A stretch of DNA of 64,000 bases, from positions 82,335,928-82,399,927 of the forward strand of contig JAVIAB010000041.1 of the NCBI GenBank assembly GCA_032433765.1, in the 5' to 3' direction. Of the stretch, positions 130-32,450 are shown piece by piece. Each line of letters starts with the position of its first letter. The stretch's first letter is position 1. A model generated the notes under the pieces. It did not search any database. It was not told where the DNA came from and saw only the letters and a list, made by a program, of their open reading frames with translations. The stretch comes from Megaustenia siamemsis. Its lineage: Eukaryota; Mollusca; Gastropoda; Stylommatophora; Ariophantidae. Made by a program: the position numbers and the translations under genes.

Positions 130-221
130 ATCCGGACGGGTGTCTGGGAGAAGTTCCACAAAGCATCCTTGATGATGAGGAGGCAGAGATTACCCAGATA
201 CTCCAGCAGTCAGTCGACCTG
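130..221 (+). CDS. DDX54: DDX54 exon A (first in window)
   Basis: The acceptor is ctttcacag ending at 129. The exon opens with two bases that finish a codon and then reads PDGCLGEVPQSILDDEEAEI and on to QSVDL, ending in phase 0 at 221. The donor is GTTAGT at 222. It matches the family segment DGVFGRVPQS-like that follows the helicase core. The donor is also the first base of the 50 bp repeat that fills the next intron. Confidence 0.85.
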
Positions 222-3200
222 GTTAGTTTCCTGACATTTTGCTGTAATTATACATGTTGTCTGTGGGACTGGTTAGTTTCCTGACATTTTCCTGTAATTA
301 TACATGTTGTCTGTAGGACTGGTTAGTTTCCTGACATTTTGCTGTAATTATACATGTTGTCTGTAGGACTGGTTAGTTTCCTGATATTTTGCTGTAATTA
401 TACATGTTGTCTGTAGGACTGGTTAGTTTCCTGATATTTTGCTATAATTATACATGTTGTCTGTAGGACTGGTTAGTTTCTTGACATTTTGCTGTAATTA
501 TACATGTTGTCTGTGGGATTGGTTAGTTTCCTGACATTTTACTGTAATTATACGTGTTGTCTGTGGGATTGGTTAGTTTCCTGACATTTTACTGTAATTA
601 TACATGTTGTCTGTGGGACTGGTTAGTTTCCTGGCAATATTTTACTGTAATTATACATGTTGTGTGTGGGACTGGTTAGCTTCCTGACAATATTTTACTG
701 TAATTATACATGTTGTCTGTGGGACTGGTTATTATCCTGGCAATATTTTACTGTAATTATACATGTCTGTGGGACTGGTTATTATCCTGGCAATATTTTA
801 CTGTAATTATGCGTGTTGTCTGTGGGACTGGTTATTATCCTGGCAATATTTTACTGTAATTGTACGTGTTGTCTGTGGGACTGGTTATTATCCAGGCAAT
901 ATTTTACTGTAATTATACGTGTTGTCTGTGGGACTGGTTAGCTTCCTGACAATATTTTACTATAATTATACGTGTTGTCTGTGGGACTGGTTATTATCCT
1001 GGCAATATTTTACTGTAATTATACGTGTTATCTGTGGGACTGGTTAGCTTCCTGACAATATTTTACTGTAATTATACGTGTTGTCTGTGGGACCGGTTAG
1101 CTTCCTGACAATATTTTACTGTAATTATACATGTTGTCTGTGGGACTGGTTAGCTTCCTGGCAATATTTTACTGTAATTATACATGTTGTCTGTGGGACT
1201 GGTTAGCTTCCTGGCAATATTTTACTGTAATTATACATGTTGTCTGTGGGACTGGTTAGCTTCCTGGCAATATTTTACTGTAATTATACATGTTGTCTGT
1301 GGGACTGGTTAGCTTCCTGGCAATATTTTACTGTAATTATACATGTCTGTGGGACTGGTTAGCTTCCTGACAATATTTTACTGTAATTATACATGTCTGT
1401 GGGACTGGTTAGCTTCCTGACAATATTTTACTGTAATTATACATGTTGTCTGTGGGACCGGTTAGCTTCCTGACAATATTTTACTGTAATTATACATGTT
1501 GTCTGTGGGACTGGTTAGCTTCCTGGCAATATTTTACTGTAATTATACATGTTGTCTGTGGGACTGGTTAGCTTCCTGGCAATATTTTACTGTAATTATA
1601 CATGTTGTCTGTGGGACTGGTTAGCTTCCTGGCAATATTTTACTGTAATTATACATGTTGTCTGTGGGACTGGTTAGCTTCCTGGCAATATTTTACTGTA
1701 ATTATACATGTCTGTGGGACTGGTTAGCTTCCTGACAATATTTTATGCCTCCATGTCCCCCTATACACTCGCTTGTGCTACATTCTGATCACGTGGCAGT
1801 GGTTGAGGCTTTGTTGATGAGGAGGGCACCACATTTATCTTTGTCTGCTTGACTTTCTACTCTTTTAGTGAACTGACTCACAGTTATGTAAATTGACCTA
1901 CCATTATGTGAACTGACTCACAGTTATGTAAATTGACCTACCATTATGTGAGCTGACTCACAGTTATGTAAATTGACCTACCATTATGTGAACTGACTCA
2001 CAGTTATGTAAATTGACCTATCATGTGAACTGACTCTCAGTTATGTAAATTGACCTATCATTATGTCAAATGACTTAATTGATTTATCATTATGTTAGCT
2101 GTTTTTATTGTTATGTGAACAGTAAATTGAGCTATCATTATGTGAACTGACTTAATTGACTTATTGTTATGTAAATTGACTTACATTATGTGAAGGGTTT
2201 ACTATTATTTGAATTGACTTATAGTTATGCAAATTGACATATTATGTGAACTGACTTAATTGACTTATCATTATGTGAACTGACTTACCATTGTGTGAAC
2301 TGACTGTAACAGGCTTACGTTATGTAAATTGACCTACTGTTATGTAAATCCACTTATCATTATGTAAATTGACTTATTGTAGTGTGAACTGACTGATTGC
2401 TGTGTGAAGTGACTGATTGCTATCTCATGAGCTACTCTATATTTCTACTCTTGACTGTCATGCAGAACAACCAGGTGCGGGTCTGTGCCAATGCCTACAA
2501 GAAGTACTGCAGGTCAAGGCCAGCCCCAGCACACGAGTCCATCAAGAGGGTTAGGACAATGGTGACAGATGCGATCAAGTTGGGCATCCATCCTTTATTC
2601 TGTAGGTATTTTGTTTGTGGGTCAGTTTCTCATAGGGGACAACACACACAATCACACAGGAAGGGCACAGTGTTGATATGTTGTCAAACATTACATTAGC
2701 AGACTTTGACACACAGACAAACATTAGCAGACTTTGTCACTCAGACAAACATTAGCAGACTTTGACAAACAGACAAACATTAGCAGACTTTGACACTCAG
2801 ACAAACATTAGCAGACTTTGACACTCAGACAAGCATTAGCAGACTTTGACACTCAGACAAACATTAGCAGACTTTGACACACAGACAAACATTAGCAGAC
2901 TTTGACAAACAGACAAACATTAGCAGACTTTGACACTCAGACAAGCATTAGCAGACTTTGACACTCAGACAAACATTAGCAGACTTTGACACACAGACAA
3001 ACATTAGCAGACTTTGACACACAGACAAACATTAGCAGACTTTGACACACAGACAAACATTAGCAGACTTTGACACTCAGACAAACATTAGCAGACTTTG
3101 ACACACAGACAAACATTAGCAGACTTTGACACTCAGACAAACATTAACAGACTTTGACACACAGACAAACATTAGCAGACTTTGACACTCAGACAAACAT

Positions 3201-6200
3201 TAGCAGACTTTGACACACAGACAAACATTAGCAGACTTTGACACTCAGACAAACATTAACAGACTTTGACACACAGACAAACATTAGCAGACTTTGACAC
3301 TCAGACAAACATTAACAGACTTAGACACACAGACAGTGCACACATACATATGTTGGTGTGCTTGACTCAGTCCTCCTGTGTGACCAACAGGTTACCAAGA
3401 TCTCGATGAGAGGGACACCAGACTGGTCATGCTGAATGCCCTCAAGAGTTACAAGCCTAAAACTGTAAGTTCTGCTCCAGGTCCTGTTACCAGGGTCTCA
3501 ATGTGTGAAGTTAACCTCTAGAAAACTTATACTGCCTCCATCATTTACCTCTTGCTCTTGAAAAATGCTTTTTTCTAGACTTGTTTTGTTACCAATAGTT
3601 CTTCATCCTTTTTCTGTCAAATTCTGATAACTCAAAAATGTATTATATATAGAGCAGAGAATAAACTGTATTTTCCTCTCTACTACACTTAGATCAAATA
3701 GAGCAGAGAATCAACTGTATTTTCCTCTCTACTACACTTAGATCAAATAGAGCAGAGAATCAACTGTATTTTCCTCTCTACCACACTGAGATCAAATAGA
3801 GCAGAGAATCAACTTTATTTTCCTCTCTACCACACTTAGATCAAATAGAACAGAGAATCAACTTTATTTTCCTCTCTACCACACTTAGATCAAATAGAAC
3901 AGAGAATCAACTGTATTTTCCTCTCTACTACACTTAGATCAAATAGAGCAGAGAATCAACTGTATTTTCCTCTCTACTACACTTAGATCAAATAGAACAG
4001 AGAATCAACTGTATTTTCCTCTCTACTACACTTAGATCAAATAGAGCAGAGAATCAACTGTATTTTCCTCTCTACTACACTTAGATCAAATAGAGCAGAG
4101 AATCAACTGTATTTTCCTCTCTACCACACTTAGATCAAATAGAACAGAGAATCAACTGTATTTTCCTCTCTACTACACTTAGATCAAATAGAGCAGAGAA
4201 TCAACTGTATTTTCCTCTCTACCACACTGAGATCAAATAGAACAGAGAATAAACTGTATTTTCCTCTCTACCACACTGAGATCAAATAGAACAGAGAATA
4301 AACTGTATTTTCCTCTCTACCACACTGAGATCAAATAGAGCAGAGAATAAACTGTATTTTCCTCTCTACCACACTGAGATCAAATAGAACAGAGAATAAA
4401 CTGTATTTTCCTCTCTACCACACTGAGATCAAATAGAGCAGAGAATCAACTTTATTTTCCTCTCTACCACACTGAGATCAAATAGAGCAGAGAATCAACT
4501 TTATTTTCCTCTCTACCACACTGAGATCAAATAGAACAGAGAATAAACTTTATTTTCCTCTCTACCACACTGAGATCAAATAGAGCAGAGAATAAACTTT
4601 ATTTTCCTCTCTACCACACTGAGATCAAATAGAGCAGAGAATAAACTTTATTTTCCTCTCTACCACACTGAGATCAAATAGAGCAGAGAATCAACTTTAT
4701 TTTCCTCTCTACCACACTGAGATCAAATAGAGCAGAGAATCAACTTTATTTTCCTCTCTACCACACTGAGATCAAATAGAGCAGAGAATCAACTTTATTT
4801 TCCTCTCTACCACACTGAGATCAAATAGAACAGAGAATAAACTTTATTTTCCTCTCTACCACACTGAGATCAAATAGAGCAGAGAATAAACTTTATTTTC
4901 CTCTCTACCACACTGAGATCAAATAGAGCAGAGAATCAACTTTATTTTCCTCTCTACCACACTGAGATCAAATAGAGCAGAGAATCAACTTTATTTTCCT
5001 CTCTACCACACTGAGATCAAATAGAGCAGAGAATCAACTTTATTTTCCTCTCTACCACACTGAGATCAAATAGAGCAGAGAATCAACTTTATTTTCCTCT
5101 CTACCACACTGAGATCAAAGTTTGGATTTTTAAAGAAATCTTGAAGCTCTGATTAGTACTGATTAAAATCCTAATGGTGGACAAATGTGCGCTGTTGTAC
5201 TTGCTTCATCGCTGACAGAAAGGTGTTTGGTATCCCCCTTCCCCCCAACAAATTCAATAGTACAATGCAATAGTGGGTGGAGTCTCTTCTTGCATTTCTT
5301 GAATCAATCAAAGTGTTGACTTGTTGTTATTTGTACATGATAAGTTTTTGTGGCAACTTTTGTGTCGCTGTTTTTGTTCTTATATACTTGTTTCATCTAT
5401 AGATGTAGTTTTTGTATTTTATATTGACATCTGGTCAATTAAAAACTGCTACACCGCTAGTGGTGAAATTTAGCAACACGTAAACGTTTTTTACGTGAAG
5501 ATCGATTCATCCATTGATTTTATATGATTTTTTTGTTCTTCATTGTTTTGTGTTGATGAAGGGTGAATGTCATAGTTTATCACATTCAGTATCTGAAGTT
5601 AGCCAGGGTGAATGTCATAGTTTATCACATTCAGTATCTGAAGTTAGCCAGGGTGAATGTCATAGTTTATCACATTCAGTATCTGAAGTTAGCCAGGTGA
5701 ATGTCATAGTTTATCACATTCAGTATCTGAAGTTAGCCAGGGTGAATGTCATAGTTTATCACATTCAGTATCTGAAGTTAGCCAGGGTGAATGTCATAGT
5801 TTATCACATTCAGTATCTGAAGTTAGCCAGGGTGAATGTCGTAGTTTATCACATTCAGTATTTGAAGTTAGCCAGGGTGACTGAATGCTGTAGTTCTGAA
5901 AGAATGAATGATGATGTTTTGTTATGTTTGATGATATAATAAATGTTTGATAGTTCATTGAAAGATAGCTTGTTGCTAACCGTATGTTGTGTCTCTATCG
6001 ATAGCTTGTTGCTAACTGTATGTTGTGTCTCTATTGATAGCTTGTTGCTAACTGTATGTTGTGTCTCTATTGATAGCTTGTTGCTAACTGTATGTTGTGT
6101 CTCTATTGATAGCTTGTTGCTAACTGTATGTTGTGTCTCTATTGATAGCTTGTTGCTAACTGTATGTTGTGTCTCTATTGATAGCTTGTTGCTAACTGTA

Positions 6201-9200
6201 TGTTGTGTCTCTATTGATAGCTTGTTGCTAACTGTATGTTGTGTCTCTATTGATAGCTTGTTGCTAACTGTATGTTGTGTCTCTATTGATAGCTTGTTGC
6301 CAACTGTATGTTGTGTCTCTATTGATAGCTTGTTGCTAACTGTATGTTGTGTCTCTATTGATAGCTTGTTGCTAACTGTATGTTGTGTCTCTATTGATAG
6401 CTTGTTGCTAACTGTATGTTGTGTCTCTATCGATAGCTTGTTGCTAACTGTATGTTGTGTCTCTATTGATAGCTTGTTGCTAACTGTATGTTGTGTCTCT
6501 ATTGATAGCTTGTTGCTAACCGTATGTTGTATCTCTATTGATAGCTTGTTGCTAACTGTATGTTGTATCTCTATTGATAGCTTGTTGCTAACTGTATGTT
6601 GTGTCTCTATTGATAGCTTGTTACTAACTGTATGTTGTGTCTCTATTGATAGCTTGTTGCTAACCGTATGTTGTGTCTCTATTGATAGCTTGTTGCTAAC
6701 CGTATGTTGTGTCTCTATTGATAGCTTGTTGCTAACCGTATGTTGTGTCTCTATCATCCCAAGACCATCTTTGAAATCAACAGCACCAGCAAGAAATCTG
6801 GCTTGGAAGTCATGAAAGCCAAACGGGCACAGCATGAGCAGATCCTCATCAGCAACGAGGCTCGTAGGAGAGACAAACATGGTAGAGAGCTGTTGACATC
6901 ATCTTTCTCAGTTCCAAAAAGTGAGAACAGGGACAAGCAAACTGTGGGAGAAGCTGACCAGGAAGATATTGATGTATGTTGGTGTTTGTTTGAGAAATAT
7001 CTTGTCTCTGGTGTTTTGTTTTAGAAATGTCCGTCCCCCTCCCAACTTATAGTGAGAGCATTGTAAAAAAAAAAAAAAAGTCAAGAGCCCTGTCACACCA
7101 AGTGGCATATATGGAATATGGTGTTAGTGACCATCAATTTTACAGACCTTCGGCGCATGATTTTTGGGGTAATGTGGTGGGTATTATCCCCATGCCGCTT
7201 TACTTTCCCAGAACAAATCAGGTACCCATTTAAGAGTGAGAGCATTGATCTGGTGTTAAAGAATGACATTAATGGAGATCTCTGGGAGAGTTTCTAGACT
7301 CAGTTATATTGGCCTGCTTGATTCAGGCTTGTTTCTTCTTTACAATGAGTGAATCTTAAATGTTGATTGTTGGTTCTTTACAATGAGTGAATCTTAAATG
7401 TTGATTGTTGGTTCTTTACAATGAGTGAATCTTAAATGTTGATTGTTTGTTTTCTACATCAGTTCTAATTTGTTTCTTCATCTTGGAGTATGTCAATCCG
7501 TGTCTTGCTTGTTCTATATCAGTCTGTCTTTTGTCACATCAATAGGATGTTCTTCAGACTAGTCTGTAATTAGTCGCAATAAGTTGTTTGTTATTCAGGC
7601 TAGTCTGTATTTGGCTGTATCGTGTTGTGTTTTCTTCAGACTGCTCTGTCTTTGATCACATCATGTTGTATGTTCTTTATACCAAGCTGTCTTTGATCAC
7701 ATCATGTTGTATGTTCTTTATACCAAGCTGTCTTTGATCACATCATGTTGTATGTTCTTTATACCAAGCTGTCTTTAATCACATCATGTTGTATGTTCTT
7801 TATACCAAGCTGTCTTTGATCACATCATGTTGTATGTTCTTTATACCAAGCTGTCTTTGATCACATCATGTTGTATGTTCTTTATACCAGGCTGTCTTTG
7901 ATCACATCATGTTGTATGTTCTTTATACCAAGCTGTCTTTGATCACATCATGTTGTATGTTCTTTATACCAAGCTGTCTTTGATCACATCATGTTGTATG
8001 TTCTTTATACCAAGCTGTCTTTTATCACATCATGTTGTATGTTCTTTATACCAAGCTGTCTTTGATCACATCAAGTTATATGTTCTTGATATTAGGCTGT
8101 CTTTGATCATGTCATGTTGTATGTTCTTTATACCAAGCTGTCTTTGATCACATCATGTTGTATGTTCTTTATACCAAGCTGTCTTTAATCACTTCATGTT
8201 GTATGTTCTTTATACCAAGCTGTCTTTGATCACATCATGTTGTATGTTCTTTATACCAAGCTGTCTTTTATCACATCATGTTGTATGTTCTTGATATTAG
8301 GCTGTCTTTTATCACATCATGTTGTATGTTCTTTATACCAAGCTGTCTTTTATCACATCATGTTGTATGTTCTTTATACCAAGCTGTCTTTTATCACATC
8401 ATGTTGTATGTTCTTTATACCAAGCTGTCTTTAATCACATCAAGTTATATGTTCTTTATACCAAGCTGTCTTTGATCACATCATGTTATATGTTCTTTAT
8501 ACCAAGCTGTCTTTGATCACATCATGTTATATGTTCTTCATACCAGGCTGTCTTTGGTCATGTCATGTTGTATGTTCTTTATACCAAGCTGTCTTTGATC
8601 ACATCAAGTTATATGTTCTTTATACCAAGCTGTCTTTGGTCATGTCATGTTGTATGTTCTTCATACCAGGCTGTCTTTGATCACATCAAGTTATATGTTC
8701 TTGATATTAGGCTGTCTTTGATCATGTCATGTTGTATGTTTTTCATACCAGGCTGTCTTTGATCACATCAAGTTATATGTTCTTGATATTAGGCTGTCTT
8801 TGATCATGTCATGTTGTATGTTTTTCATACCAGGCTGTCTTTGGTCATGTGCTGTCTTCCAAATCAAAGTGCAACTCTTCCCTACAAGATGGGAGACACA
8901 AGAAGTCATCCGATGTGATAGACAAGGAGAACTACATCCACTACAGACCTTCTGACTTTGCGACTGAGAGGGGGTAGGTCTGTTGTCACAAGTTTCATGT
9001 TGTTGGATTTTGTGGAATTGACAGCTCTTGGAAAAAACCCACAAATAAAGAACAGAAAACACAGCCAACAATAGACAGACTGAACTAGGATCGAACCCAT
9101 ACTCCTTGCCACTAGAGAGCTGCTTATTTAAGCGCACTGTTAGCTCAGCAGCGAAAAACTGACAGAACTTACACACATACATAATTTATAGAACATAATT

Positions 9201-12200: not shown

Positions 12201-15200
12201 TACCTGTATGTGACATGTTGCTACAGTCAAGTACTACCTGTATGTGACATGTTGCTACAGTCAAGTACTACCAGTATGTGATATGTTGCTACAGTCAAGT
12301 ACTACCTGTATGTGACATGTTGCTACAGTCAAGTACTACCTGTATGTGATATGTTGCTACAGTCAAGTACCATCAACGTATATTTGAGAGGGCAGCCACT
12401 GATCTGTTTACTTGCAGGCTGAGTGTGTCCAACACTTTTGAGAGAGAGGCCGGCGGTGCTGTTCTAGACCTGACAATGATGAGGCTGATAGCAGCAACCG
12501 AAGCAAGAGACGATGGTCAGTGCTGGACTACTTGATGTTTATATTAATCTGTTTGTTGTTGATGATATTGTTATCTAAGCTGTTTGTTGTTGATGATATT
12601 GTTATCTAAGTTGTTTGTTGTTGATGATATTGTTATCTAAGTTGTTTGTTGTTGATGATATTGTTATCTAAGTTGTTTGTTGTTGATGATATTGTTATCT
12701 AATCTGTTGTTGATGATATTGTTATCTAAGTTGTTTGTTGTTGATGATATTGTTATCTAAGTTGTTTGTTGTTGATGATATTGTTATCTAAGTTGTTTGT
12801 TGTTGATGATATTGTTATCTAATCTGTTGTTGATGATATTGTTATCTAAGTTGTTTGTTGTTGATGATATTGTTATCTAAGTTGTTTGTTGTTGATGATA
12901 TTGTTATCTAAGTTGTTTGTTGTTGATGATATTGTTATCTAAGTTGTTTGTTGTTGATGATATTGTTATCTAATCTGTTTGATGATATTGTGTTTATATG
13001 TGTGACTGTTGTCTACTAGCACACATATAGTTATAGAAGTCTCCTGACTTGACTGTTGTCTACTAGCACACATATAGTTATAGAAGTCTCCTGACTTGAC
13101 TGTTGTCTACTAGCACACATATAGTTATAGAAGTCTCCTGACTTGACTGTTGTCTACTAGCACACATATAGTTATAGAAGTCTCCTGACTTGACTGTTGT
13201 CTACTAGCACACATATAGTTATAGAAGTCTCCTGACTTGACTGTTGTCTACTAGCACACATATAGTTATAGAAGTCTCCTGACTTGACTTGTCTACTAGC
13301 ACACATATAGTTATAGAAGTCTCCTGACTTGACTATTGTCTACTAGCACACATATAGTTATAGAAGTCTACTGACTTGACTGTTGTCTACTAGCACACAT
13401 ATAGTTATAGAAGTCTCCTGACTTGACTGTTGTCTACTAGCACACATATAGTTATAGAAGTCTACTGACTTGACTGTTGTCTACTAGCACACATATAGTT
13501 ATTTTAGTCTCCTGACTGGACTTGTCTACTAGCACACATATAGTTATAGAAGTCTCCTGACTTGACTATTGTCTACTAGCACACATATAGTTATAGAAGT
13601 CTACTGACTTGACTGTTGTCTACTAGCACACATATAGTTATAGAAGTCTCCTGACTTGACTGTTGTCTACTAGCACACATATAGTTATAGAAGTCTCCTG
13701 ACTTGACTGTTGTCTACTAGCACACATATAGTTATAGAAGTCTCCTAACTTGACTTGTCTACTAGCACACATATAGTTATAGAAGTCTACTGACTTGACT
13801 GTTGTCTACTAGCACACATATAGTTATAGAAGTCTCCTGACTTGACTGTTGTCTACTAGCACACATATAGTTATAGAAGTCTACTGACTTGACTGTTGTC
13901 TACTAGCACACATATAGTTATAGAAGTCTCCTGACTTGACTATTGTCTACTAGCACACATATAGTTATAGAAGTCTACTGACTTGACTATTGTCTACTAG
14001 CACACATATAGTTATAGAAGTCTCCTGACTTGACTGTTGTCTACTAGCACACATATAGTTATAGAAGTCTACTGACTTGACTGTTGTCTACTAGCACACA
14101 TATAGTTATAGAAGTCTACTGACTTGACTGTTGTCTACTAGCACACATATAGTTATAGAAGTCTCCTGACTTGACTTGTCTACTAGCACACATATAGTTA
14201 TAGAAGTCTCCTGACTTGACTATTGTCTACTAGCACACATATAGTTATAGAAGTCTACTGACTTGACTGTTGTCTACTAGCACACATATAGTTATAGAAG
14301 TCTCCTGACTTGACTGTTGTCTACTAGCACACATATAGTTATAGAAGTCTACTGACTTGACTGTTGTCTACTAGCACACATATAGTTATTTTAATCTCCT
14401 GACTGGACTTGTCTACTAGCACACATATAGTTATAGAAGTCTCCTGACTTGACTATTGTCTACTAGCACACATATAGTTATAGAAGTCTCCTGACTTGAC
14501 TGTTGTCTACTAGCACACATATAGTTATAGAAGTCTACTGACTTGACTGTTGTCTACTAGCACACATATAGTTATAGAAGTCTACTGACTTGACTGTTGT
14601 CTACTAGCACACATATAGTTATAGAAGTCTCCTGACTTGACTGTTGTCTACTAGCACACATATAGTTATAGAAGTCTCCTGACTTGACTGTTGTCTACTA
14701 GCACACATATAGTTATAGAAGTCTCCTAACTTGACTTGTCTACTAGCACACATATAGTTATAGAAGTCTCCTGACTTGACTGTTGTCTACTAGCACACAT
14801 ATAGTTATAGAAGTCTACTGACTTGACTGTTGTCTACTAGCACACATATAGTTATAGAAGTCTCCTGACTTGACTATTGTCTATTAGCACACATATAGTT
14901 ATAGAAGTCTCCTGACTTGACTATTGTCTACTAGCACACATATAGTTATAGAAGTCTACTGACTTGACTATTGTCTACTAGCACACATATAGTTATAGAA
15001 GTCTCCTGACTTGACTGTTGTCTACTAGCACACATATAGTTATAGAAGTCTACTGACTTGACTGTTGTCTACTAGCACACATATAGTTATAGAAGTCTCC
15101 TGACTTGACTGTTGTCTACTAGCACACATATAGTTATAGAAGTCTCCTGACTTGACTGTTGTCTACTAGCACACATATAGTTATAGAAGTCTCCTGACTT

Positions 15201-18200
15201 GACTATTGTCTACTAGCACACATATAGTTATAGAAGTCTCCTGACTTGACTATTGTCTACTAGCACACATATAGTTATAGAAGTCTACTGACTTGACTAT
15301 TGTCTACTAGCACACATATAGTTATAGAAGTCTCCTGACTTGACTGTTGTCTACTAGCACACATATAGTTATAGAAGTCTCCTGGCTTGACTATTGTCTA
15401 CTAGCACACATATAGTTATAGAAGTCTCCTGACTTGACTATTGTCTACTAGCACACATATAGTTATAGAAGTCTACTGACTTGACTGTTGTCTACTAGCA
15501 CACATATAGTTATAGAAGTCTACTGACTTGACTTGTCTACTAGATCTATAGTTATAGAAGTCTCCTGACTTGACTATTGTCTACTAGCACACATATAGTT
15601 ATAGAAGTCTCCTGACTTGACTATTGTCTACTAGCACACATATAGTTATAGAAGTCTCCTGACTTGACTGTTGTCTACTAGCACACATATAGAAGTCTCC
15701 TGACTTCACTATTGTCTACTAGCACACACATCTTGTAGAAGTAACTGTTTCTTCCTTGTCTAAAGCCATCTTGTCTATTTTCAATGTGTATATTTTCAAA
15801 TCATTGATGCTCTCATTTCCACTCTTTGATCAGTTATCACAAGCCAGTTATTGTCTGATGTCAGCACTTGTTGTTTCTGCAGGGACAGAAAGAGGAAGAA
15901 GTTTGTGACAGACAATGTAGACGATATCAAGAAGAAGAAGATCAAAACTGAGAGTGGAAACTGGATACCAGCATCATACAAGTCCAATGCATATCCTTGT
16001 TGATGTGTCAGTCAATGTCCCAGGTGTAATTGATGTGTCAGTCAATATCCTGGATGTAATTGATGTGTCAGTCAATGTTCTGAACATAACTGGTGTGTCA
16101 GTCAATGTCCTAGACATAATTGGTGTGTTTGTCAATGTCCTAGATATAATTGGTGTGTTTGTCAATGTCCTAGACATAATTGGTGTGTCAGTCAATGTCC
16201 TAGACATAATTGGTGTGTTTGTCAATGTCCTAGACATAATTGGTGTGTCAGTCAATGTCCTAGACATAATTGGTGTGTCAGTCAATGTCCTAGACATAAT
16301 TGGTGTGTTTGTCAATGTCCTAGATATAATTGGTGTTTGTCAATGTCCTAGACATAATTGGTGTGTCAGTCAATGTCCTAGACATAATTGGTGTGTTTGT
16401 CAATGTCCTAGATATAATTGGTGTTTGTCAATGTCCTAGATATAATTGGTGTGTTTGTCAATGTCCTAGACATAATTGGTGTGTTTGTCAATGTCCTAGA
16501 CATAATTGGTGGGATTGTCAATGTCCTAGATATAATTGGTGGGATTGTCAATGTCCTAGATATAATTGGTGTGTTTGTCAATGTCCTAGACATAATTGGT
16601 GTTTGTCATTGTCCCGAATGTATTTGGTGTGTTTGTCATTGTCCCGAATGTATTTGGTGTGTTTGTCATTGTCCTGGACATAATAGGTGTGTTTGTCAAT
16701 GTCCTAGACATAATTGGTGTTTGTCATTGTCCCGAATGTATTTGGTGTGTTTGTCATTGTCCCGAATGTTTTTGGTGTGTTTGTCAATGTCCTGGACATA
16801 ATTGGTGTGTTTGTCAATGTCCTGGACATAATAGGTGTGTTTGTCAATGTCCTAGATATAATTGGTGGGATTGTCAATGTCCTAGAAATAATTGGTGTTT
16901 GTCAATGTCCTGGACATAATTGGTGTGTTTGTCAATGTCCTGGACATAATTGGTGTGTTTGTCAATGTCCTAGATATAATTGGTGTTTGTCAATGTCCTA
17001 GATATAATTGGTGTTTGTCAATGTCCTAGATATAATTGGTGTGTTTGTCAATGTCCTAGACATAATTGGTGTGTTTGTCATTGTCCCGAATGTATTTGGT
17101 GTGTTTGTCATTGTCCCGAATGTATTTGGTGTGTTTGTCATTGTCCCGAATGTATTTGGTGTGTTTGTCATTGTCCCGAATGTATTTGGTGTGTTTGTCA
17201 TTGTCCTGGACATAATTGGTGTGTTTGTCAATGTCCTGGACATAATAGGTGTGTTTGTCAATGTCCTAGATATAATTGGTGGGATTGTCAATGTCCTAGA
17301 AATAATTGGTGTTTGTCAATGTCCTGGACATAATTGGTGTGTTTGTCAATGTCCTGGACATAATTGGTGTGTTTGTCAATGTCCTAGATATAATTGGTGT
17401 TTGTCAATGTCCTAGATATAATTGGTGTTTGTCAATGTCCTAGATATAATTGGTGTGTTTGTCAATGTCCTAGACATAATTGGTGTGTTTGTCATTGTCC
17501 CGAATGTATTTGGTGTGTTTGTCATTGTCCCGAATGTATTTGGTGTGTTTGTCATTGTCCCGAATGTATTTGGTGTGTTTGTCATTGTCCCGAATGTATT
17601 TGGTGTGTTTGTCATTGTCCCGAATGTATATGGTGTGTTTGTCAATGTCCTGGGGTAGTTATATTAGAAATAATTTTCAGAGTTGTGTTCCTTGACTGGG
17701 TTCCCACATACCAGGACTGGAGGCACAGGGCCAAGTTTGCTGAGAGGGCGGACTCGAGCGGGGATGAGGACAACACTAGAGGAGGTCCTAGCAGGACTGC
17801 AGGACATAGTTCCTCCAGCAGGAAGTTTTCTGTTGCTGGCACAAGGAGAAAAAATTGTGAGTAAAGTCTTGGAATGTTGTATCATTGCTGCATCAACTGC
17901 ACAGATGTTATTGGTCACTTTGTTGTATCATTGCTGCATCAACTGCACAGATGTTATTGGTCACTTTGTTGTATCATTGCTGCATCAACTGCACAGATGT
18001 TATTGGTCACTTTGTTGTATCATTGCTGCATCAGCAGATGTTATTGGTCACTTTGTTGTATCATTGCTGCATCAGCAGATGTTATTGGTCACTTTGTTGT
18101 ATCATTGCTGCATCAGCAGATGTTATTGGCCACTTTGTTGTATCATTGCTGCTTCAGTAGATGTTATTGGTCACTTTGTTGTATTATTGCTGTATCAAAA

Positions 18201-21200: not shown

Positions 21201-22069
21201 TAAAATAGATGCCCTCTCTATTCATTATACTAGATGCCCTCTCTATCTACTGTATCTCACCTCCATTAACTAAACCAATTATTCTCCAACACGTCACCTC
21301 CATTAACTAAACCAATTATTCTCCAACACATCACCTCCATTAACTAAACCAATTATTCTCTGACACATCACCTCCATTAACTAAACCAATTATTCTCCGA
21401 CACATCACCTCCATTAACTAAACCAATTATTCTCCGACACGTCACCTCCATTAACTAAACCAATTATTCTCCGACACGTCACCTCCATTAACTAAACCAA
21501 TTATTCTCCGACACGTCACCTCCATTAACTAAACCAATTATTCTCCCACACATCACCTCCATTAACTAAACCAATTATTCTCCGACATGTGACCTCCATT
21601 AACTAAACCAATTATTCTCCGACACGTCACCTCCATTAACTAAACCAATTATTCTCCGACACGTCACCTCCATTAACTAAACCAATTATTCTCCGACACG
21701 TCACCTCCATTAACTAAACCAATTATTCTCCGACACGTCACCTCCATTAACTAAACCAATTATTCTCCGACAGGGCACACTAAAGGTTCAACTAAGGAAG
21801 TCAGCAGAAAACAGAACAAGCTGAAGTTTAAACGAGGTCGAGCTGGTGAGCTCAAATCTGCTGATCAGATCCTGAAGAACCGCAGAAGGAAAGACAAAAT
21901 TCAGAATTTCCAGAAATTTCGACAAAATCAACGACAGAAAAGTAAAGGGCAAGAATTTGGTGGGAAGGCGGGCAAACAGTTTGGTTCAAAGGGTAAAGGT
22001 CAGAGTTTCAATTCAAAGGGCAAAGGTCAAGGAAGAGGTTTCAGTTCAAAGGGTAAAGGTAAAAACTGA
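130..22069 (+). CDS. DDX54: DDX54/Dbp10-like DEAD-box RNA helicase, C-terminal half, nine exons (5' part lies upstream of the window)
   Basis: Exons 130-221, 2466-2601, 3391-3464, 6764-6973, 8834-8973, 12418-12515, 15883-15990, 17708-17856 and 21774-22069 join in phase, apart from one base in exon 6, to give about 430 residues ending in TGA. In order the peptides match what I recall of vertebrate DDX54 after the helicase core: RSRPAPAHESIKR, GIHPLF, TIFEIN, YRPSDFATERG, GGAVLDL, WDRKRKKFV, KKKIKTESG, SYKSNAYQDWRHRAK and a basic tail with ADQILKNRRRKDK. The segment around exons 5-7 corresponds to the conserved DBP10CT region. Family knowledge: Dbp10/DDX54 acts in the nucleolus in 60S ribosomal subunit biogenesis. 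The catalytic DEAD-box motifs are not in this window. Introns are unusually rich in tandem repeats. The identification rests on recalled family sequence, not on a search. Confidence 0.9.
222..1745 (+). repeat. 50 bp minisatellite starting exactly at the exon A donor
   Basis: About 30 head-to-tail copies of a unit starting gttagtttcctgacattttg and ending tgtgggactg. There are 53 bp (gacaatattttac) and 45-47 bp variants. The first base of the array is the first base of the intron, and every unit repeats the context ggactg|gttag. 1746-1868 is single-copy sequence in which I see nothing. Confidence 0.95.
1869..2430 (+). repeat. Degenerate 40 bp repeat in intron 1
   Basis: Three or four good copies of gaactgactcacagttatgt + aaattgacctaccattatgt, then increasingly degraded copies (gaactgactt, aattgactta) as far as the exon B acceptor region. 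The decay gradient suggests an older array than the others. Confidence 0.85.
2466..2601 (+). CDS. DDX54: DDX54 exon B
   Basis: The acceptor is gactgtcatgcag (to 2465), preceded by a pyrimidine-rich stretch. Forty-five codons encode VCANAYKKYCRSRPAPAHES and on to LGIHPLF, the most recognisable DDX54 signature (RSRPAP-ESIKR then G-HPLF). The donor is T|GTAGGT at 2602. It leaves one base that joins GT of the next exon to make a cysteine codon. The alternative donor five bases later would put a stop early in the next exon. Confidence 0.9.
2692..3335 (+). repeat. 28 bp minisatellite in intron 2
   Basis: About 23 copies of ttagcagactttgacacaca + gacaaaca. Variation is mostly acacac/acactc/acaaac and aaac/aagc. 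It fills most of intron 2 (2602-3390), leaving about 55 bp before the next acceptor. Confidence 0.95.
3391..3464 (+). CDS. DDX54: DDX54 exon C
   Basis: The acceptor is tgaccaacag (to 3390) and the donor a consensus GTAAGT at 3465. The exon starts with two bases completing a Cys codon, then reads YQDLDERDTRLVMLNALKSY and KPKT, ending in phase 0. It corresponds to the family stretch ending in -SYRSRAT just before TIFEIN. Confidence 0.85.
3651..5118 (+). repeat. 49 bp minisatellite in intron 3
   Basis: About 30 copies of a unit starting agagcagagaatcaactgta and containing ttttcctctctaccacac. Most variation is at a few fixed positions (atcaact/ataaact; ctta/ctga). Confidence 0.95.
5119..5562 (+). 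other. Single-copy part of intron 3 with one perfect small hairpin
   Basis: No coding signal. At 5477-5497 there are 8 bp arms, cacgtaaa and tttacgtg, around a 5 base loop. It may be the end of an old transposon, but I see no partner. Confidence 0.5.
5563..5878 (+). repeat. 45 bp minisatellite in intron 3 (seven copies)
   Basis: The unit starts gtgaatgtcatagtttatca and ends agttagccagg. One copy lacks a base. Because 45 is a multiple of three, several frames stay open; this is not a gene. Confidence 0.95.
5964..6754 (+). repeat. 36 bp minisatellite ending next to exon D
   Basis: Twenty-two copies of gatagcttgttgctaactgt + atgttgtgtctctatt with very few substitutions. The period of 12 codons keeps frames open on both strands (about 290 and 340 codons). 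They are simple repeat translations. The array ends nine bases before the exon D start. Confidence 0.95.
6764..6973 (+). CDS. DDX54: DDX54 exon D
   Basis: The acceptor is ctatcatcccaag (to 6763). Seventy codons start TIFEINSTSKKSGLEVMKAK and end ADQEDID before GTATGT at 6974. TIFEIN is a clear DDX54 family motif. The rest is charged and low in conservation, as expected for the linker after the core. The 36 bp array of the preceding intron stops only about nine bases before this exon. Confidence 0.88.
6974..7336 (+). other. Left part of intron 4, single copy
   Basis: It starts with the donor GTATGT. It contains a short A-run at 7065 and a stretch (7075-7230) with no obvious gene. The latter could be a mobile-element end, but I cannot name it. 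Confidence 0.4.
7337..7450 (+). repeat. 38 bp repeat, three copies
   Basis: Unit ttctttacaatgagtgaatc + ttaaatgttgattgttgg. Confidence 0.9.
7518..8850 (+). repeat. 41 bp minisatellite that runs through the exon E acceptor
   Basis: Twenty-nine good copies (7643-8833) of gctgtctttgatcacatcat + gttgtatgttctttatacca + a. Three strongly diverged copies (7518-7642) precede them. The unit boundary ..tacca[a/g]|gctgtctttg coincides with the intron 4 3' splice site, and the last partial unit forms the first 17 bases of exon E. Confidence 0.95.
8834..8973 (+). CDS. DDX54: DDX54 exon E; first bases are also the end of a 41 bp minisatellite
   Basis: The acceptor is catac-cag (8831-8833). The exon reads AVFGHVLSSKSKCNSSLQDG and on to YIHYRPSDFATER plus GG, with the donor GTAGGT at 8974. 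YRPSDF-TERG matches the family YRPKDF-SERG. Its first 17 bases (GCTGTCTTTGGTCATGT) are a copy of the start of the 41 bp unit that fills the intron upstream, so the array crosses the intron/exon border. Confidence 0.87.
9080..9155 (-). repeat. tRNA-derived SINE remnant
   Basis: On the minus strand GGTTCGATCC (9088-9097) is a good RNA polymerase III B box. It lies about 50 bases downstream of gctgagctaacagtgcgctt, which resembles a degraded A box and D-arm. Spacing and order are as in a tRNA, but stems are not clean, so this is a SINE head rather than a working tRNA gene. Confidence 0.55.
9156..11032 (+). other. Single-copy part of intron 5, probably old mobile-element sequence
   Basis: No DDX54 coding sequence. 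Two related stretches, 9341-9431 and 9551-9643, share ..atgtagatc.., ..tggtgctatgg/gcattatgg.. and ..gtgca(c/t)ctggc at the same spacing: a diverged direct repeat. Short open frames here do not resemble a protein I know. Nothing else can be supported. Confidence 0.4.
11033..12370 (+). repeat. 34/36 bp minisatellite in intron 5
   Basis: About 39 copies of gtactacctgtatgtgacat + gttgctacagtcaa. Left copies carry gtgtatgtgccatatt (36 bp). Right copies carry tgacatgtt, tgatatgtt or tgccaaagtt. It ends 47 bases before exon F. Confidence 0.95.
12418..12515 (+). CDS. DDX54: DDX54 exon F, with an apparent one-base frameshift at 12473-12474
   Basis: The acceptor is gtttacttgcag (to 12417) and the donor G|GTCAGT at 12516. 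From the previous exon's phase it reads LSVSNTFEREAGGAVLDL up to 12472, matching family G-LSIS-to-AGAVLDL. The conserved continuation NDEADSSNRSKRR and then W (joined to the next exon, WDRKRKKFV) is in a different frame starting at 12475. Only two bases (AC) lie between CTG and AAT where three are needed. Keeping the first frame gives MMRLIAATEARDD and a stop soon after the next junction. So one base looks missing: a sequencing or assembly error, a real mutation in this copy, or an unseen exon arrangement. Confidence 0.8.
12545..12985 (+). repeat. 31 bp minisatellite in intron 6
   Basis: About 14 copies of gtttgttgttgatgatattg + ttatctaagtt, with some shortened units. It begins about 30 bases after the exon F donor. 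Confidence 0.95.
13003..15728 (+). repeat. 47 bp minisatellite filling intron 6
   Basis: About 58 copies of gactgttgtctactagcaca + catatagttatagaagtctc + ctgactt. Variation is limited (tgttg/tattg, tctcc/tctac, loss of tgt). The same order of variants recurs, for example gttattttagtctcctgactgg at about 13497 and again near 14387, so blocks were copied together. Confidence 0.95.
15883..15990 (+). CDS. DDX54: DDX54 exon G, ends at a U12-type AT-AC intron
   Basis: The acceptor is ttgtttctgcag (to 15882). After G completing Trp it reads DRKRKKFVTDNVDDIKKKKI, KTESGNWIPASYKSN and then GC, completed by the A of the next exon. WDRK-KKF and KKKIKTESG are strong DDX54 family matches. No GT donor gives a sensible junction here. 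The exon ends before ATATCCTTG at 15991, which fits a minor-spliceosome 5' splice site. Confidence 0.87.
16001..17654 (+). repeat. 30 bp minisatellite inside the U12 intron
   Basis: About 55 copies of gtcaatgtcctagacataat + tggtgtgttt. A second variant class is gtcattgtcccgaatgtatt + tggtgtgttt. A marker copy with cctagaaataattgg occurs at 16881 and 17295, showing a block duplicated at a 414 bp offset. The array starts about ten bases after the 5' splice site and stops about 33 bases before the branch site. Open frames here are periodic artefacts. Confidence 0.95.
17688..17696 (+). promoter_or_regulatory. U12 branch-site element
   Basis: TTCCTTGAC, with the branch A at 17695, is an exact match to the minor-class branch-point consensus and lies 12 bases before the intron's last base. 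Confidence 0.8.
17708..17856 (+). CDS. DDX54: DDX54 exon H
   Basis: It begins with A completing GCA after an intron ending ...cccac, then YQDWRHRAKFAERADSSGDE and a serine/arginine-rich tail to TRRKN plus T. The donor is GTGAGT at 17857. The joined peptide SYKSNAYQDWRHRAK has the same length and pattern as the family SYK-DLYQKWKQKQK, which fixes the start to the base. The acidic patch SSGDED follows, as in relatives. Confidence 0.87.
17874..18197 (+). repeat. 41 bp minisatellite, left part (split by a retroelement)
   Basis: Copies of tgttattggtcactttgttg + tatcattgctgcatcagcag. The first three carry catcaactgcacag. The array stops at about 18197 and continues at 19862, so the sequence between them interrupts it. 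Confidence 0.9.
18322..18582 (+). repeat. 51 bp repeat, five copies
   Basis: Unit acaaatccttacactaacac + aattctgatcatccgcaaat + ctgcgaactct. The multiple-of-three period leaves frames open by chance. Confidence 0.9.
18583..18957 (+). other. Single-copy stretch, probably part of the inserted retroelement
   Basis: CT-rich on the plus strand. It includes a TCGACCGCC..CCCC stretch. No coding signal on either strand that I can support. Confidence 0.35.
18958..19463 (+). pseudogene. Ty3/gypsy-like Gag fragment with CCHC zinc knuckle
   Basis: The first piece reads ESIQEYGERIREMAEQGFG, typical of a Gag capsid segment. After frame breaks, 19107-19463 is open. It carries CYRCGRIWHIVREC at 19329-19370, which is a CX2CX4HX4C nucleic-acid-binding knuckle. 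An Arg/Ser/Gln-rich end follows. A stop before 19107 and the lack of flanking LTRs show it is a broken copy. It sits in intron 8 of DDX54. Confidence 0.75.
19473..19860 (-). pseudogene. Ty3/gypsy-like Pol (reverse transcriptase) fragment, opposite orientation to the Gag piece
   Basis: On the minus strand TYVDDIIIFT holds the YVDD catalytic box (19849-19860). After frame breaks come KCPFLRKEVKGFVVS and LPVKEKVQA, and then VREVRSFLGMCGYYRRFIPK, the usual connection to RNase H. The stretch of about 28 codons around RSFLGMCGYYRRFIPKFTE is present twice in tandem. Frameshifts and a stop make it non-functional. Its orientation against the neighbouring Gag fragment points to rearrangement or two separate insertions. 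Confidence 0.8.
19862..20190 (+). repeat. 41 bp minisatellite, right part
   Basis: The same unit as at 17874-18197 (tttgttgtatcattgctgca..), about eight copies, ending tgcttcagtagatgacattgg. It resumes directly after the Pol fragment. Confidence 0.9.
20229..21245 (+). repeat. 25 bp minisatellite in two sequence classes
   Basis: 20229-about 20655: tcctctgtatccaccatcct + agatg. From there to 21245: ccctctctatccactatact + agatg, with 20 bp short units (ctctatgcactatactagatgc). The two classes are clearly related and meet at a sharp border, so each was homogenised separately. Confidence 0.95.
21250..21773 (+). repeat. 37 bp minisatellite abutting the last-exon acceptor
   Basis: Fourteen copies of cacctccattaactaaacca + attattctccgacacgt. 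The final copy reads attattctccgacag and is the 3' splice site of the last exon, so each unit contains a near-acceptor differing mainly by g to c. Confidence 0.95.
21774..22069 (+). CDS. DDX54: DDX54 last exon, basic C-terminal tail and stop
   Basis: The acceptor is tattctccgacag (to 21773). It starts with GG completing a Trp codon, then a lysine/arginine-rich tail with ELKSADQILKNRRRKDKIQN (family ELKTKQQILKQRRR-). Three or four short GSKGKGQ-type glycine/lysine repeats follow, then TGA at 22067-22069. A basic, repeat-rich tail suits an RNA-binding nucleolar protein. The intron array upstream has the same tattctccgaca just before its unit boundary. Confidence 0.88.
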
Positions 22070-25885: not shown

Positions 25886-26497
25886 AAGTGATGGAAATTT
25901 TCAGGCCAGATAAAGTGGTAGAATCTGTTGTCCACTTGAGAAGCACTGGCCACACTTAATAAGCTCATTCAACCACTTTCCAGCACACCAAGCCAGTCAA
26001 TATTTAGAATTTTTCTCCTGGGCTCAGATTCTCTCAGGACGAACATTTCTTCCTTCTCTACTCACTTCTCACCAACATTTCTTCCTTCTCTACTCACTTC
26101 TCACCAACATTTGGTCCATCTTGTCAGACAATTTTCATATCCTTACTGTAGTTCAGCCTACACTGTTCTCTCTCTTTGAGGCATCAACGTGTGATTTATC
26201 AAGCAACATGATAATAGTGACACATATAAGATTGTATGGCAGACATTTAATATGGTTTACCAACTTTCATCAGTTGCAAGACACAAAATCAGCCACACAA
26301 GGCAACTCATCAGACAAAGGCAGGAAGCTGGACATGCCAGAAATCCACCTCGCTGATGGTGTGCCAGTACCGGCACTTGCTTCTTTTTCTTTGCAACCAC
26401 ACACACACAGGGGTTCCCAACATTTTGTAAAGCAACCACCAAGCTATTAAAATATAACTGCGGCTGTAACAACAAAAACGGTTGTATGATCACACTA
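25886..26497 (+). other. Single-copy stretch between arrays
   Basis: It holds a two-copy 33 bp repeat at about 26036-26112 (acatttcttccttctctact..). Open frames on both strands of 80-110 codons resemble no family I know. Near 26408 there is caggggttcccaa, a sequence seen at ends of hAT-type transposons, but no second end was found. Confidence 0.4.
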
Positions 26498-28890
26498 CAT
26501 TCAAGACACAGTTGAGCTTACACACACTAAACATTCAAGACACAGTTGAGCTTACACACACTAAACATTCAAGACACGGTTGAGCTTACACACACTAAAC
26601 ATTCAAGACACAGTTGAGCTCACACATACTAAACATTCAAGACAGTTGAGCTCACACATACTAAACATTCAAGACACAGTTGAGCTCACACACACTAAAC
26701 ATTCAAGACACAGTTGAGCTCACACACTAAACATTCAAGACACAGTTGAGCTCACACACACTAAACATTTAAGACACAGTTGAGCTCACACACTAAACAT
26801 TCAAGACACAGTTGAGCTCACACACACTAAACATTCAAGACACAGTAGTGCTCACACACACTAAACATTCAAGACACAGTTGAGCTTACGCAAACTAAAC
26901 ATTCAAAACACAGTTGAGCTCACACACACTAAACATTCAAGACACAGTTGAGCTTACACACACTAAACATTCAAAACACAGTTGAGCTCACACACACTAA
27001 ACATTCAAGACACAGTTGAGCTTACACACACTAAACATTCAAGACACAGTTGAGCTTACACACACTAAACATTCAAGACACAGTTGAGCTTACACACACT
27101 AAACATTCAAGACACATTTGAGCTCACACACACTAAACATTCAAGACACAGTTGAGCTTACACACACTAAACATTCAAGACACAGTTGAGCTTACACACA
27201 CTAAACATTCAAGACACAGTTGAGCTTACACACACTAAACATTCAAGACACAGTTGAGCTCACACACACTAAACATTCAAGACACAGTTGAGCTTACACA
27301 CACTAAACATTCAAAACACAGTTGAGCTCACACACACTAAACATTCAAGACACAGTTGAGCTTACACACACTAAACATTCAAGACACAGTTGAGCTTACA
27401 CACACTAAACATTCAAGACACAGTTGAGCTTACACACACTAAATATTCAAGACACAGTTGAGCTCACACACACTAAACATTCAAGACACAGTTGAGCTTA
27501 CACACACTAAACATTCAAGACACAGTTGAGCTTACACACACTAAACATTCAAGACACAGTTGAGCTCACACACACTAAACATTCAAGACACAGTTGAGCT
27601 CACACACACTAAACATTCAAGACACAGTTGAGCTTACACACACTAAACATTCAAGACACACTAAACATTCAAGACACAGTTGAGCTTTACACACACTAAA
27701 CATTCAAGACACAGTTGAGCTCACACACACTAAACATTCAAGACACAGTTGAGCTCACACACACTAAACATTCAAGACACAGTTGAGCTTACACACACTA
27801 AACATTCAAGACACAGTTGAGCTCACACACACTAAACATTCAAGACACAGTTGAGCTCACACACACTAAACATTCAAGACACACTAAACATTCAAGACAC
27901 AGTTGAGCTTACACACACTAAACATTCAAGACACAGTTGAGATTACACACACTAAACATTCAAGACACAGTTGAGCTTACACACACTAAACATTCAAGAC
28001 ACAGTTGAGCTTACACACACTGAACATTCAAGACACAGTTGAGCTCACACACACTAAACATTCAAGACACAGTTGAGCTTACACACACTAAACATTCAAG
28101 ACACACTAAAAATTCAAGACACAGTTGAGCTTACACACACTAAACATTCAAGACACAGTTGAGCTTACACACACTAAACATTCAAGACACAGTTGAGCTC
28201 ACACACACTAAACATTCAAGACACAGTTGAGCTTACACACACTAAACATTCAAGACACAGTTGAGCTTACACACACTAAACATTCAAGACACAGTTGAGC
28301 TCACACACACTAAACATTCAAGACACAGTTGAGCTCACACACACTAAACATTCAAGACACAGTTGAGCTCACACACACTAAACATTCAAGACACAGTTGA
28401 GATTACACACACTAAACATTCAAGACACAGTTGAGCTTACACACACTAAACATTCAAGACACACTAAACATTCAAGACACAGTTGAGCTTTACACACACT
28501 AAACATTCAAGACACAGTTGAGCTCACACACACTAAACATTCAAGACACAGTTGAGCTCACACACACTAAACATTCAAGACACAGTTGAGCTTACACACA
28601 CTAAACATTCAAGACACAGTTGAGCTTACACACACTAAACATTCAAGACACAGTTGAGCTCACACACACTAAACATTCAAGACACAGTTGAGCTCACACA
28701 CACTAAACATTCAAGACACAGTTGAGCTTACACACACTAAACATTCAAGACACAGTTGAGCTCACACACACTAAACATTCAAGACACAGTTGAGCTCACA
28801 CACACTAAACATTCAAGACACAGTTGAGCTTACACATACTAAACATTCAAGACACAGTTGAGCTCACACACACTAAACATTCAAGACACA
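26498..28890 (+). repeat. 34 bp CA-rich minisatellite, copy 1
   Basis: About 70 copies of acacactaaacattcaagac + acagttgagcttac. Variation is mainly gctta/gctca, plus truncated units (gacacactaaacattcaag). It lies in the left part of the large duplication. Confidence 0.95.
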
Positions 28891-29290
28891 GAATAAGCCA
28901 AGTATTCAAAGACTCAAAGAAAAATGCTCTCCAATCATCATCTTTCCACAACACAATCATTCCTCTCATCAACTTTCCAATCTTTACTCAACTTCTCTGA
29001 TTGTCCCGTTGATCATCTATGTTAGCCACGATAAAGAAATTACAATTCTAGTCAATTTTTTACAGTAAAATAAAATGAGGGCAATGTAACACAAACAGGA
29101 TGGGACAAGACAACTTTGATAAATAAACAATCTGATGGAAGTAGGGTCTGAATATGACAGTCTAGGCAGCAGCAAAACACTGAGGCATCTCTGGTGGGGG
29201 CAACCTTAATGCAGCAGCAGGGCAGCTGCCCATCAGCTGACTAAGATCTACCAGTTCTACCTCCTCATTTGTCTCCCCTGGTAATAGCCA
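28891..29290 (-). other. Single-copy island with a possible terminal exon (copy 1)
   Basis: On the minus strand an acceptor-like ttatattggctattaccag is followed by an open frame ETNEEVELVDLSQLMG, then PPPEMPQCF, ending in TAG near 29159. The plus strand of the same stretch also has a short open frame (NTEASLVGATLMQQQG). I recognise neither. The island is repeated at 36868-37266 with one extra C in the run next to the acceptor (tctcccctgg here, tctccccctgg there). Confidence 0.3.
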
Positions 29291-31545
29291 ATATAAAAGC
29301 AGGCTGGCTAATAGAAGCAATGACCGCTGTAGTGGTAGCTTTCACTAAGATGGGACAAGTCTCACAGGCTGGCTAATAGAAGCAATCACCGCTGTAGTGG
29401 TAGCTTTCCCTAAGATGGGACAAGTCACACTGGCTAATAGAAGCAAGGACTGCTGTAGTGGTAGCTTTCACTAAGATGGGACAAGTCTCACAGGCTGGCT
29501 AATAGAAGCAATGACCGCTGTAGTGGTAGCTTTCACTAAGATGGGACAAGTCTCACAGGCTGGCTAATAGAAGCAATCACCGCTGTAGTGGTAGCTTTCC
29601 CTAAGATGGGACAAGTCACACTGGCTAATAGAAGCAAGGACTGCTGTAGTGGTAGCTTTCACTAAGATGGGACAAGTCTCACAGGCTGGCTAATAGAAGC
29701 AAGGACTGCTGTAGTGGTAGCTTTCACTAAGATGGGACAAGTCTCACAGGCTGGCTAATAGAAGCAATCACCGCTGTAGTGGTAGCTTTCCCTAAGATGG
29801 GACAAGTCACACTGGCTAATAGAAGCAAGGACTGCTGTAGTGGTAGCTTTCACTAAGATGGGACAAGTCACACTGGCTAATAGAAGCAAGGACTGCTGTA
29901 GTGGTAGCTTTCACTAAGATGGGACAAGTCTCACAGGCTGGCTAATAGAAGCAAGGACTGCTGTAGTGGTAGCTTTCACTAAGATGGGACAAGTCTCACA
30001 GGCTGGCTAATAGAAGCAATGACTGCTGTAGTGGTAGCTTTCACTAAGATGGGACAAGTCACACAGGCTGGCTAATAGAAGCAATGACTGCTGTAGTGGT
30101 AGCTTTCACTAAGATGGGACAAGTCACACAGGCTGGCTAATAGAAGCAAGGACTGCTGTAGTGGTAGCTTTCACTAAGATGGGACAAGTCACACTGGCTA
30201 ATAGAAGCAAGGACTGCTGTAGTGGTAGCTTTATCTATGATGTAAGGACTGCTGTAGTGGTAGCTTTATCTATGATGGAAGTACTGCTGTAGTGGTAGCT
30301 TTATCTATGATGGAAGGACTGCTGTAGTGGTAGCTTTCTATGATGGAAGGACTGCTGTAGTGGTAGCTTTCACTATGATGGAAGGACTGCTGTAGTGGTA
30401 GCTTTATCTATGATGGAAGTACTGCTGTAGTGGTAGCTTTATCTATGATGGAAGGACTGCTGTAGTGGTAGCTTTCTATGATGGAAGGACTGCTGTAGTG
30501 GTAGCTTTATCTATGATGGAAGGACTGCTGTAGTGGTAGCTTTCACTATGATGGAAGGACTGCTGTAGTGGTAGCTTTATCTATGATGGAAGTACTGCTG
30601 TAGTGGTAGCTTTATCTATGATGGAAGGACTGCTGTAGTGGTAGCTTTCACTATGATGGAAGGACTGCTGTAGTGGTAGCTTTATCTATGATGGAAGTAC
30701 TGCTGTAGTGGTAGCTTTATCTATGATGGAAGTACTGCTGTAGTGGTAGCTTTCACTATGATGGAAGGACTGCTGTAGTGGTAGCTTTCACTAAGATGGG
30801 ACAAGTCACACAGGCTGGCTAATAGAAGCAAGGACTGCTTTAGTGGTAGCTTTCACTATGATGGAAGGACTGCTGTAGTGGTAGCTTTCACTAAGATGGG
30901 ACAAGTCTCACAGGCTGGCTAATAGAAGCAAGGACTGCTGTAGTGGTAGCTTTCACTAAGATGGGACAAGTCACACAGGCTGGCTAATAGAAGCAATGAC
31001 CGCTGTAGTGGTAGCTTTCATCAAGATGGAACAAGTCACACAGGCTGGCTAATAGAAGCAATGACTGCTGTAGTGGTAGCTTTCACTAAGATGGGACAAG
31101 TCACACAGGCTGGCTAATAGAAGCAAGGACTGCTACAGTGGTAGCTTCCACTATGATGGAAGGACTGCTACAGTGGTAGCTTCCACTATGATGGAAGGAC
31201 TGCTACAGTGGTAGCTTCCACTATGATGGAAGGACTGCTACAGTGGTAGCTTCCACTATGATGGAAGGACTGCTACAGTGGTAGCTTCCACTAAGATGGA
31301 AGGACTGCTACAGTGGTAGCTTCCACTATGATGGAAGAACTGCTACAGTGGTAGCTTCCACTATGATGGAAGGACTGCTACAGTGGTAGCTTCCACTAAG
31401 ATGGAAGGACTGCTACAGTGGTAGCTTCCACTATGATGGAAGGACTGCTACAGTGGTAGCTTCCACTATGATGGAAGGACTTCTACAGTGGTAGCTTCCA
31501 CTATGATGGAAGGACTGCTACAGTGGTAGCTCCCACTGTGATGGA
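29291..31545 (+). repeat. 65 bp / 35 bp compound minisatellite, copy 1
   Basis: Long units: ggctggctaatagaagcaat + gaccgctgtagtggtagctt + tcactaagatgggacaagtc + tcaca. Short 35 bp units keep only the middle: ggactgctgtagtggtagct + ttatctatgatggaa. To the right is another 35 bp class, aaggactgctacagtggtag + cttccactatgatgg. The shared core is ctgtagtggtagctt. Confidence 0.95.
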
Positions 31546-32400: not shown

Positions 32401-32450
32401 TGTACTGTCAATGGTAGGACAGGAGGAGCTGTCTTCATAGTGTAGTCAGG

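Follow-up and report, generated by a model that had tools for sequence, protein, structure and literature searches.

The locus described here raises the question of what an intron of the minor (U12-type) class keeps when nearly all of its interior is tandem repeat. It lies in what we call the window, the whole 64-kb stretch of DNA analysed (JAVIAB010000041.1, 82335928–82399927, 1.9 Mb from the end of an 84.3-Mb contig in an assembly of 2.59 Gb and 155 contigs), which carries the 3′ part of DDX54 on its + strand. There, a 1717-bp, phase 2 intron at 15991..17707 (+), placed by its signals and by the junction peptide, reads as U12-type with AT-AC termini, and it is filled by a 30-bp minisatellite.

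Borders and signals of the intron

The DDX54 exon upstream of the intron (15883..15990, +; DRKRKKFVTDNVDDIKKKKIKTESGNWIPASYKSNA) ends in AATGC, with its last codon split GC|A, and the exon downstream (17708..17856, +; A|YQDWRHRAKFAE...) starts ATACCAG. Between them the sequence runs from the U12-type 5′ splice site ATATCCTT (15991..15998, +), which matches the consensus at 8 of 8 positions, through the U12-type branch site TTCCTTGAC (17688..17696, +; branch A at 17695), which matches TTCCTTRAY at 9 of 9, to a closing CCCAC whose AC (17706..17707, +) lies 12 nt past the branch A, 17707 being the last intron base. In U12-type introns, the branch site stands about 10–16 nt from the intron end. 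An earlier note on this DNA had read the same 5′ site, branch site and AC 12 bases on, and all three were found. TTCCTTRAC occurs in the 64 kb once per strand (17688 on +, 22034 on −) and is accompanied by an AC at the correct spacing at 17688 only, both strands considered, while ATATCCTT occurs four times on the + strand (at 15991, 26137, 31862 and 39837) and not once on the − strand of the 64 kb. A 5′ site paired with a branch site within 5 kb appeared in 0 of 100 first-order Markov sequences of the window's length and composition, searched on one strand.

The borders were also examined through the protein that they yield. GT-AG, GC-AG and AT-AC models were tried with donors and acceptors within 15931–16300 and 17401–17760; 35 of the models were open, 10 of these 35 kept both flanking blocks, and SNAYQDW arose from 15991/17707 only, which bears out the claim that these borders alone give the conserved peptide SYKSNA|YQDW. 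The terminal AC coincides with the junction defined by the protein, and shifting the AT-AC junction along the sequence gave rise to no equivalent GT-AG or GC-AG border. Compared with the protein of Bradybaena (like Candidula a stylommatophoran land snail), a model permitting AT-AC scored 140 and the top GT/GC-AG model 119. Retention of the intron reads SNAYPC and then a stop. The junction peptide aligned to the DDX54 chain of PDB 8fkt, which we take to be the human DDX54 structure, with E 5.1e-8 and gapless at the junction, in support of the DDX54 identity proposed earlier, and it matched Dbp10 8v84 with E 0.09 only. A longer DDX54 peptide gave E 2e-53 with 8fkt and 7e-15 with Dbp10 8i9v, both Dbp10 entries being presumably fungal. 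The signals, their spacing and the model scores agree with the predicted U12 AT-AC class that the earlier note had assigned.

The same genome carries genes for U12 (132.9 bits), U11 (105 bits) and U6atac (90.2 bits) snRNAs, each above its Rfam cut-off, while 14 control genomes gave no match in any of these searches. The U12 snRNA of the snail genome retains GUAAGGAA, which, paired by eye, matches TTCCTTGAC with one G-U and a bulged A, and its U6atac retains AAGGAGAGAAGG. An Rfam search of the 64-kb window itself gave no match at the gathering cut-off. Elsewhere in the genome, two U6atac-like partial sequences lie within 300 bases and are probably pseudogene copies.

Repeats in the intron, the gene and the genome

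The 30-bp minisatellite (16000..17651, +; 55.7 copies, 90% matches) makes up 96% of the AT-AC intron, leaving ~65 non-repeat bases, 9 of them 5′ of the array and 56 on its 3′ side. It begins 9 bases into the intron and stops ~35 bases before the branch motif; both gaps, like the count of about 55 copies, had been estimated closely from the letters alone. The array has a higher-order period of 414 bp, with 300 of 300 bases identical at that offset from 16788, and this duplication suggests recent expansion. Within the array there are 274 GT dinucleotides; ATATCCTT is matched once at 7/8 and nowhere at 8/8, and branch-like sites reach no higher than 7/9.

Such filling extends well beyond this intron. 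Counting arrays of at least 3 copies and period 10–150, minisatellites take up 38–98% of all 17 located DDX54 introns, among which the AT-AC intron at 96% is joint third. When minisatellites of at least 4 copies are counted, they cover 78% of the window and a mean of 78% of the preceding 60 kb, against a mean of 21% (0–63%) in 20 regularly placed 10-kb stretches on three contigs, and for this reason the filling is a property of the DDX54 gene and its region, in a minisatellite-rich genome. The suggestion that a minor intron stuffed with a minisatellite is unusual, and with it that of an exceptional tolerance, is accordingly weakened, since the other located DDX54 introns are filled as well and an interior of this kind is nothing special among them. 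Inside DDX54 intron 3, 20 kb of the contig (82295928–82315927) are wholly covered by Tandem Repeats Finder, with a GC content of 50%, above that of the surroundings.

The class and size of the intron are likewise unexceptional in the light of the available passages of two sources, because minor and major intron lengths correlate across species (PMC10639083) and AT-AC introns form 26% of human U12-type introns (PMC7367187). Literature searches, judged mostly from listings, returned no published case of a minisatellite within a minor intron; among the passages available on minisatellites together with U12-type introns, one source does no more than cite a review on U12 and a minisatellite in an intron of fish growth hormone, and a search on snail minisatellites returned nothing.

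Several arrays of the gene copy its own exon–intron boundaries. The units of a 41-bp array (7646..8847, +) reproduce the 3′ splice site that follows and the start of its exon, in the manner of the amphioxus 'mirages' discussed below. In a 53-bp array (236..1745, +) the 5′ splice site at 222 is copied, and in a 37-bp array (21257..21772, +) the units repeat the region of the 3′ splice site that ends at 21773, the best-matching copy having CACG versus CAG at the real site. Compared with the interior of their own introns, 7 of 34 DDX54 boundaries matched better than any of 400 shuffles did, and in six of the seven the best alignment spans the junction (donors of introns 3 and 10; acceptors of introns 6, 7, 13 and 17); the intron 7 donor beats the shuffles with a best alignment that does not span it. 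GT or AG is kept in the best copy at four boundaries (the donors of 3 and 10, the acceptors of 6 and 13), and the strongest copies match at 30 of 30 positions over the 3′ site 8833/8834 and at 31 of 32 over the intron 3 donor.

The 30-bp array might then itself have arisen from the U12 5′ site by duplication of the mirage type, with each unit a degenerate ATATCC site. Its units carry ATGTCCTA or ATGTCCTG (6/8) and one carries ATATCCTG (7/8), boundary-derived arrays are present in other DDX54 introns, a lenient test of the AT-AC donor against the array core gave p 0.038, and 0 of 1000 shuffles did as well as 15991–16012 against early array units, most of this segment, from 16000, being itself array. 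We nonetheless consider this origin unlikely: an in-register test on the part of the intron that precedes the array gave p 0.22, windows across the exon end gave p 0.06–0.77 against the array, and in the gene-wide boundary test (p 0.06 at the donor, 0.71 at the acceptor) copying was detected at neither end of the AT-AC intron. Matches to ATATCCTT of the same quality are, moreover, found in other arrays, at 6/8 in units of 5 of the 18 others examined and at 7/8 in one more.

The gene copy and its junction in relatives

In the 52 kb before the window, exons match the Bradybaena protein from residue 79 onward, the located DDX54 exons starting at about this residue. Besides the two exons that flank the AT-AC intron, coding exons were placed on the + strand of the window at 130..221, 2466..2601, 3391..3464, 6764..6973, 8834..8973 (AVFGHVLSSKSK...), 12418..12515 and, as the final one including the stop, 21774..22069. 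The start at 8834 was set by comparison with relatives and replaced candidate starts at 8889 and 8870; the longer query peptide, employed in the structure search and in an early comparison with relatives, was without AVFGHVLSSKSK. Intron 5, which lies upstream of the window (window coordinates −15091 to −11057), is predicted to be GC-AG with a GCAAGT donor. Beyond the final coding exon, ~6.4 kb is repeated ~8 kb downstream (26491–32917 and 34440–40891, 99.0% identity over 6457 aligned bases), and RVT_1 (reverse transcriptase) and DUF6451 fragments lie at 47265–47585 (+; below the Pfam cut-off), 54541–54756 (−) and 43652–44125 (−).

In the exon at 12418..12515 the reading frame seems to be broken by 1 base near 12470, where LDLT is followed by DEAD; this is either an assembly error or the mark of a damaged copy. 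This break, in a DDX54 region that is highly repetitive and difficult to assemble, would fit a copy that is decaying, or mis-assembled, rather than the expressed DDX54. We judge that highly improbable, given that usable-looking splice sites were present at all 17 located introns (16 modelled and one, 12516–15882, set by eye on account of the frame break in the neighbouring exon) and that the encoded protein is 65.5% identical to that of Bradybaena over 406 aligned residues, the closest among the fetched relatives, with Candidula at 60.7% over 402. By this relationship the animal would be a stylommatophoran gastropod, in all probability. Judged by its sequence, the copy looks functional except for the break near 12470.

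Among 152 fetched DDX54 homologs, for which one listing comprised the best 120 of 151 matches, the junction motif is retained in 143. A strict first motif had made 46 of the 152 appear odd; with the widened motif, 7 were disrupted and 2 were without it, of which a Plakobranchus protein without the region was dropped and the other was counted as disrupted. Of the 26 named mollusc proteins, 7 thereby have a disrupted junction, versus 1 of 125 others (Fisher p 1.5e-5, on rows that are not independent), the mollusc list having been compiled by hand from source names, with unnamed proteins, of which there are many, placed among the others. The motif is unbroken in the other 19 of the 26, which is compatible with an AT-AC intron and uninformative on its class. 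The disrupted non-mollusc is Haemaphysalis longicornis, with SDFPPSYKQW versus SDVYKQW in other ticks (FPPS for V); ticks may have an intron at the same junction.

The disruptions in molluscs have a recurrent form. At the junction, the annotated Plakobranchus protein departs from the family with SSAYPYLCFIYLDW, that of Bulinus reads SNAYPSFLET, that of Lymnaea SNAYPFCTG, and that of Dreissena SNVYPLKK followed by an early end. All four have Y-P and then a residue with a codon able to start with T, as reading through GC/GT|ATATCCTT in frame would give. Among the 143 motif-intact proteins a P follows the Y in one, from Haliotis asinina, where AYPLW (versus AYRDW in H. cracherodii) could reflect either a genuine isoform or an artefact. 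Residues are lost at the junction in Biomphalaria pfeifferi, Candidula and one of two Mya proteins. With AT-AC forbidden, the best model of the window reads SNAYPFVFLDW, and since a model limited to GT/GC-AG errs here in this way, annotation errors of the Y-P type are to be expected. Some mollusc database proteins thus seem to be mis-annotated at the DDX54 junction, and the pattern, read from annotated proteins and not from DNA, supports without proving an AT-AC intron common to gastropods and bivalves. That the snail intron is instead a U2-type GT-AG intron with borders at 15999 and 17682 and a short added peptide, SNAYPFVFLDWVPTYQDW, is scarcely credible, for although this model is open in frame, is the top GT/GC-AG model and resembles the Y-P peptides of some annotated relatives, it scores 119 versus 140, the residues that it adds are the translated U12 5′ site and branch site, its donor GTTGAT deviates from GTRAGT, and 143 of the 152 homologs have the motif free of any insert.

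A minor intron among known systems

We conclude with high confidence that this gastropod DDX54 has a minor AT-AC intron at SYKSNA|Y, probably an old one, whose interior is filled by a 30-bp repeat up to the signals. In the splicing that we envisage, U11/U12 would recognise ATATCCTT and TTCCTTGAC, U6atac would next pair with the 5′ site and the intron would be excised, its interior being ignored and the terminal signals sufficing. Slippage or unequal exchange most probably expanded the repeat inside the pre-existing intron, an expansion that would have left little beyond the terminal signals and would parallel the state of the other located DDX54 introns. A broader proposition, for and against which we find the balance even, is that minisatellite has here taken over the interior of an ancient DDX54 minor intron, one that gastropods share with bivalves and perhaps with primates, until ~65 non-repeat bases were left, and that the mirage-like arrays of this genome copy U2-type sites and did not copy the U12 sites of this one minor intron. 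If true, it would make the locus a natural experiment in which a minor intron requires terminal signals alone.

Some consequences reach further. Read-through as Y-P at a conserved junction would be a simple signature for other mis-annotated AT-AC introns, and a minor intron that already serves to report on splicing in primate cells is given an exact position in mollusc DDX54, at which part of the public annotation appears to be wrong. The boundary copies suggest that a gastropod gene, too, can have mirage-type arrays of the amphioxus kind at many of its introns, and those of DDX54 would be tractable for how splicing picks the true site among near-copies.

DDX54 is already published as a U12-type-intron gene for primates, its exons 18–19 representing one of five genes with U12-type introns assayed in Vero cells (PMC10098413). 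That intron is in the same gene as the snail one and is known as U12-type, its termini being unstated in the available passages of the source. Translated by eye, one frame of the assay's forward primer, the only primer placed relative to the junction, reads GQSGQE, a peptide that 8fkt has a short way before the junction, and from this position a primate U12-type intron would therefore lie at or near the snail junction. In the abalone TSSK1-like gene, available passages describe in intron 3 a minisatellite of 62 repeats of a 27-bp unit, polymorphic in that repeat number differs between individuals (PMC6905558); it is likewise a gastropod intronic minisatellite of similar unit size, but sits in another gene than DDX54. 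The amphioxus mirages, in the parts of the sources available, are intronic tandem repeats that span exon–intron boundaries and are reported without disturbance of splicing (PMC3087553, PMC3902484), and they resemble the boundary-spanning arrays at 6 of the 34 snail DDX54 boundaries, whereas the AT-AC intron's own array fails the boundary test. With U12-type AT-AC introns, finally, the snail intron agrees in its 5′ site, branch site, spacing, AC end, phase 2 and the minor snRNAs of its genome, and it differs from them in an interior that is nearly all tandem repeat.
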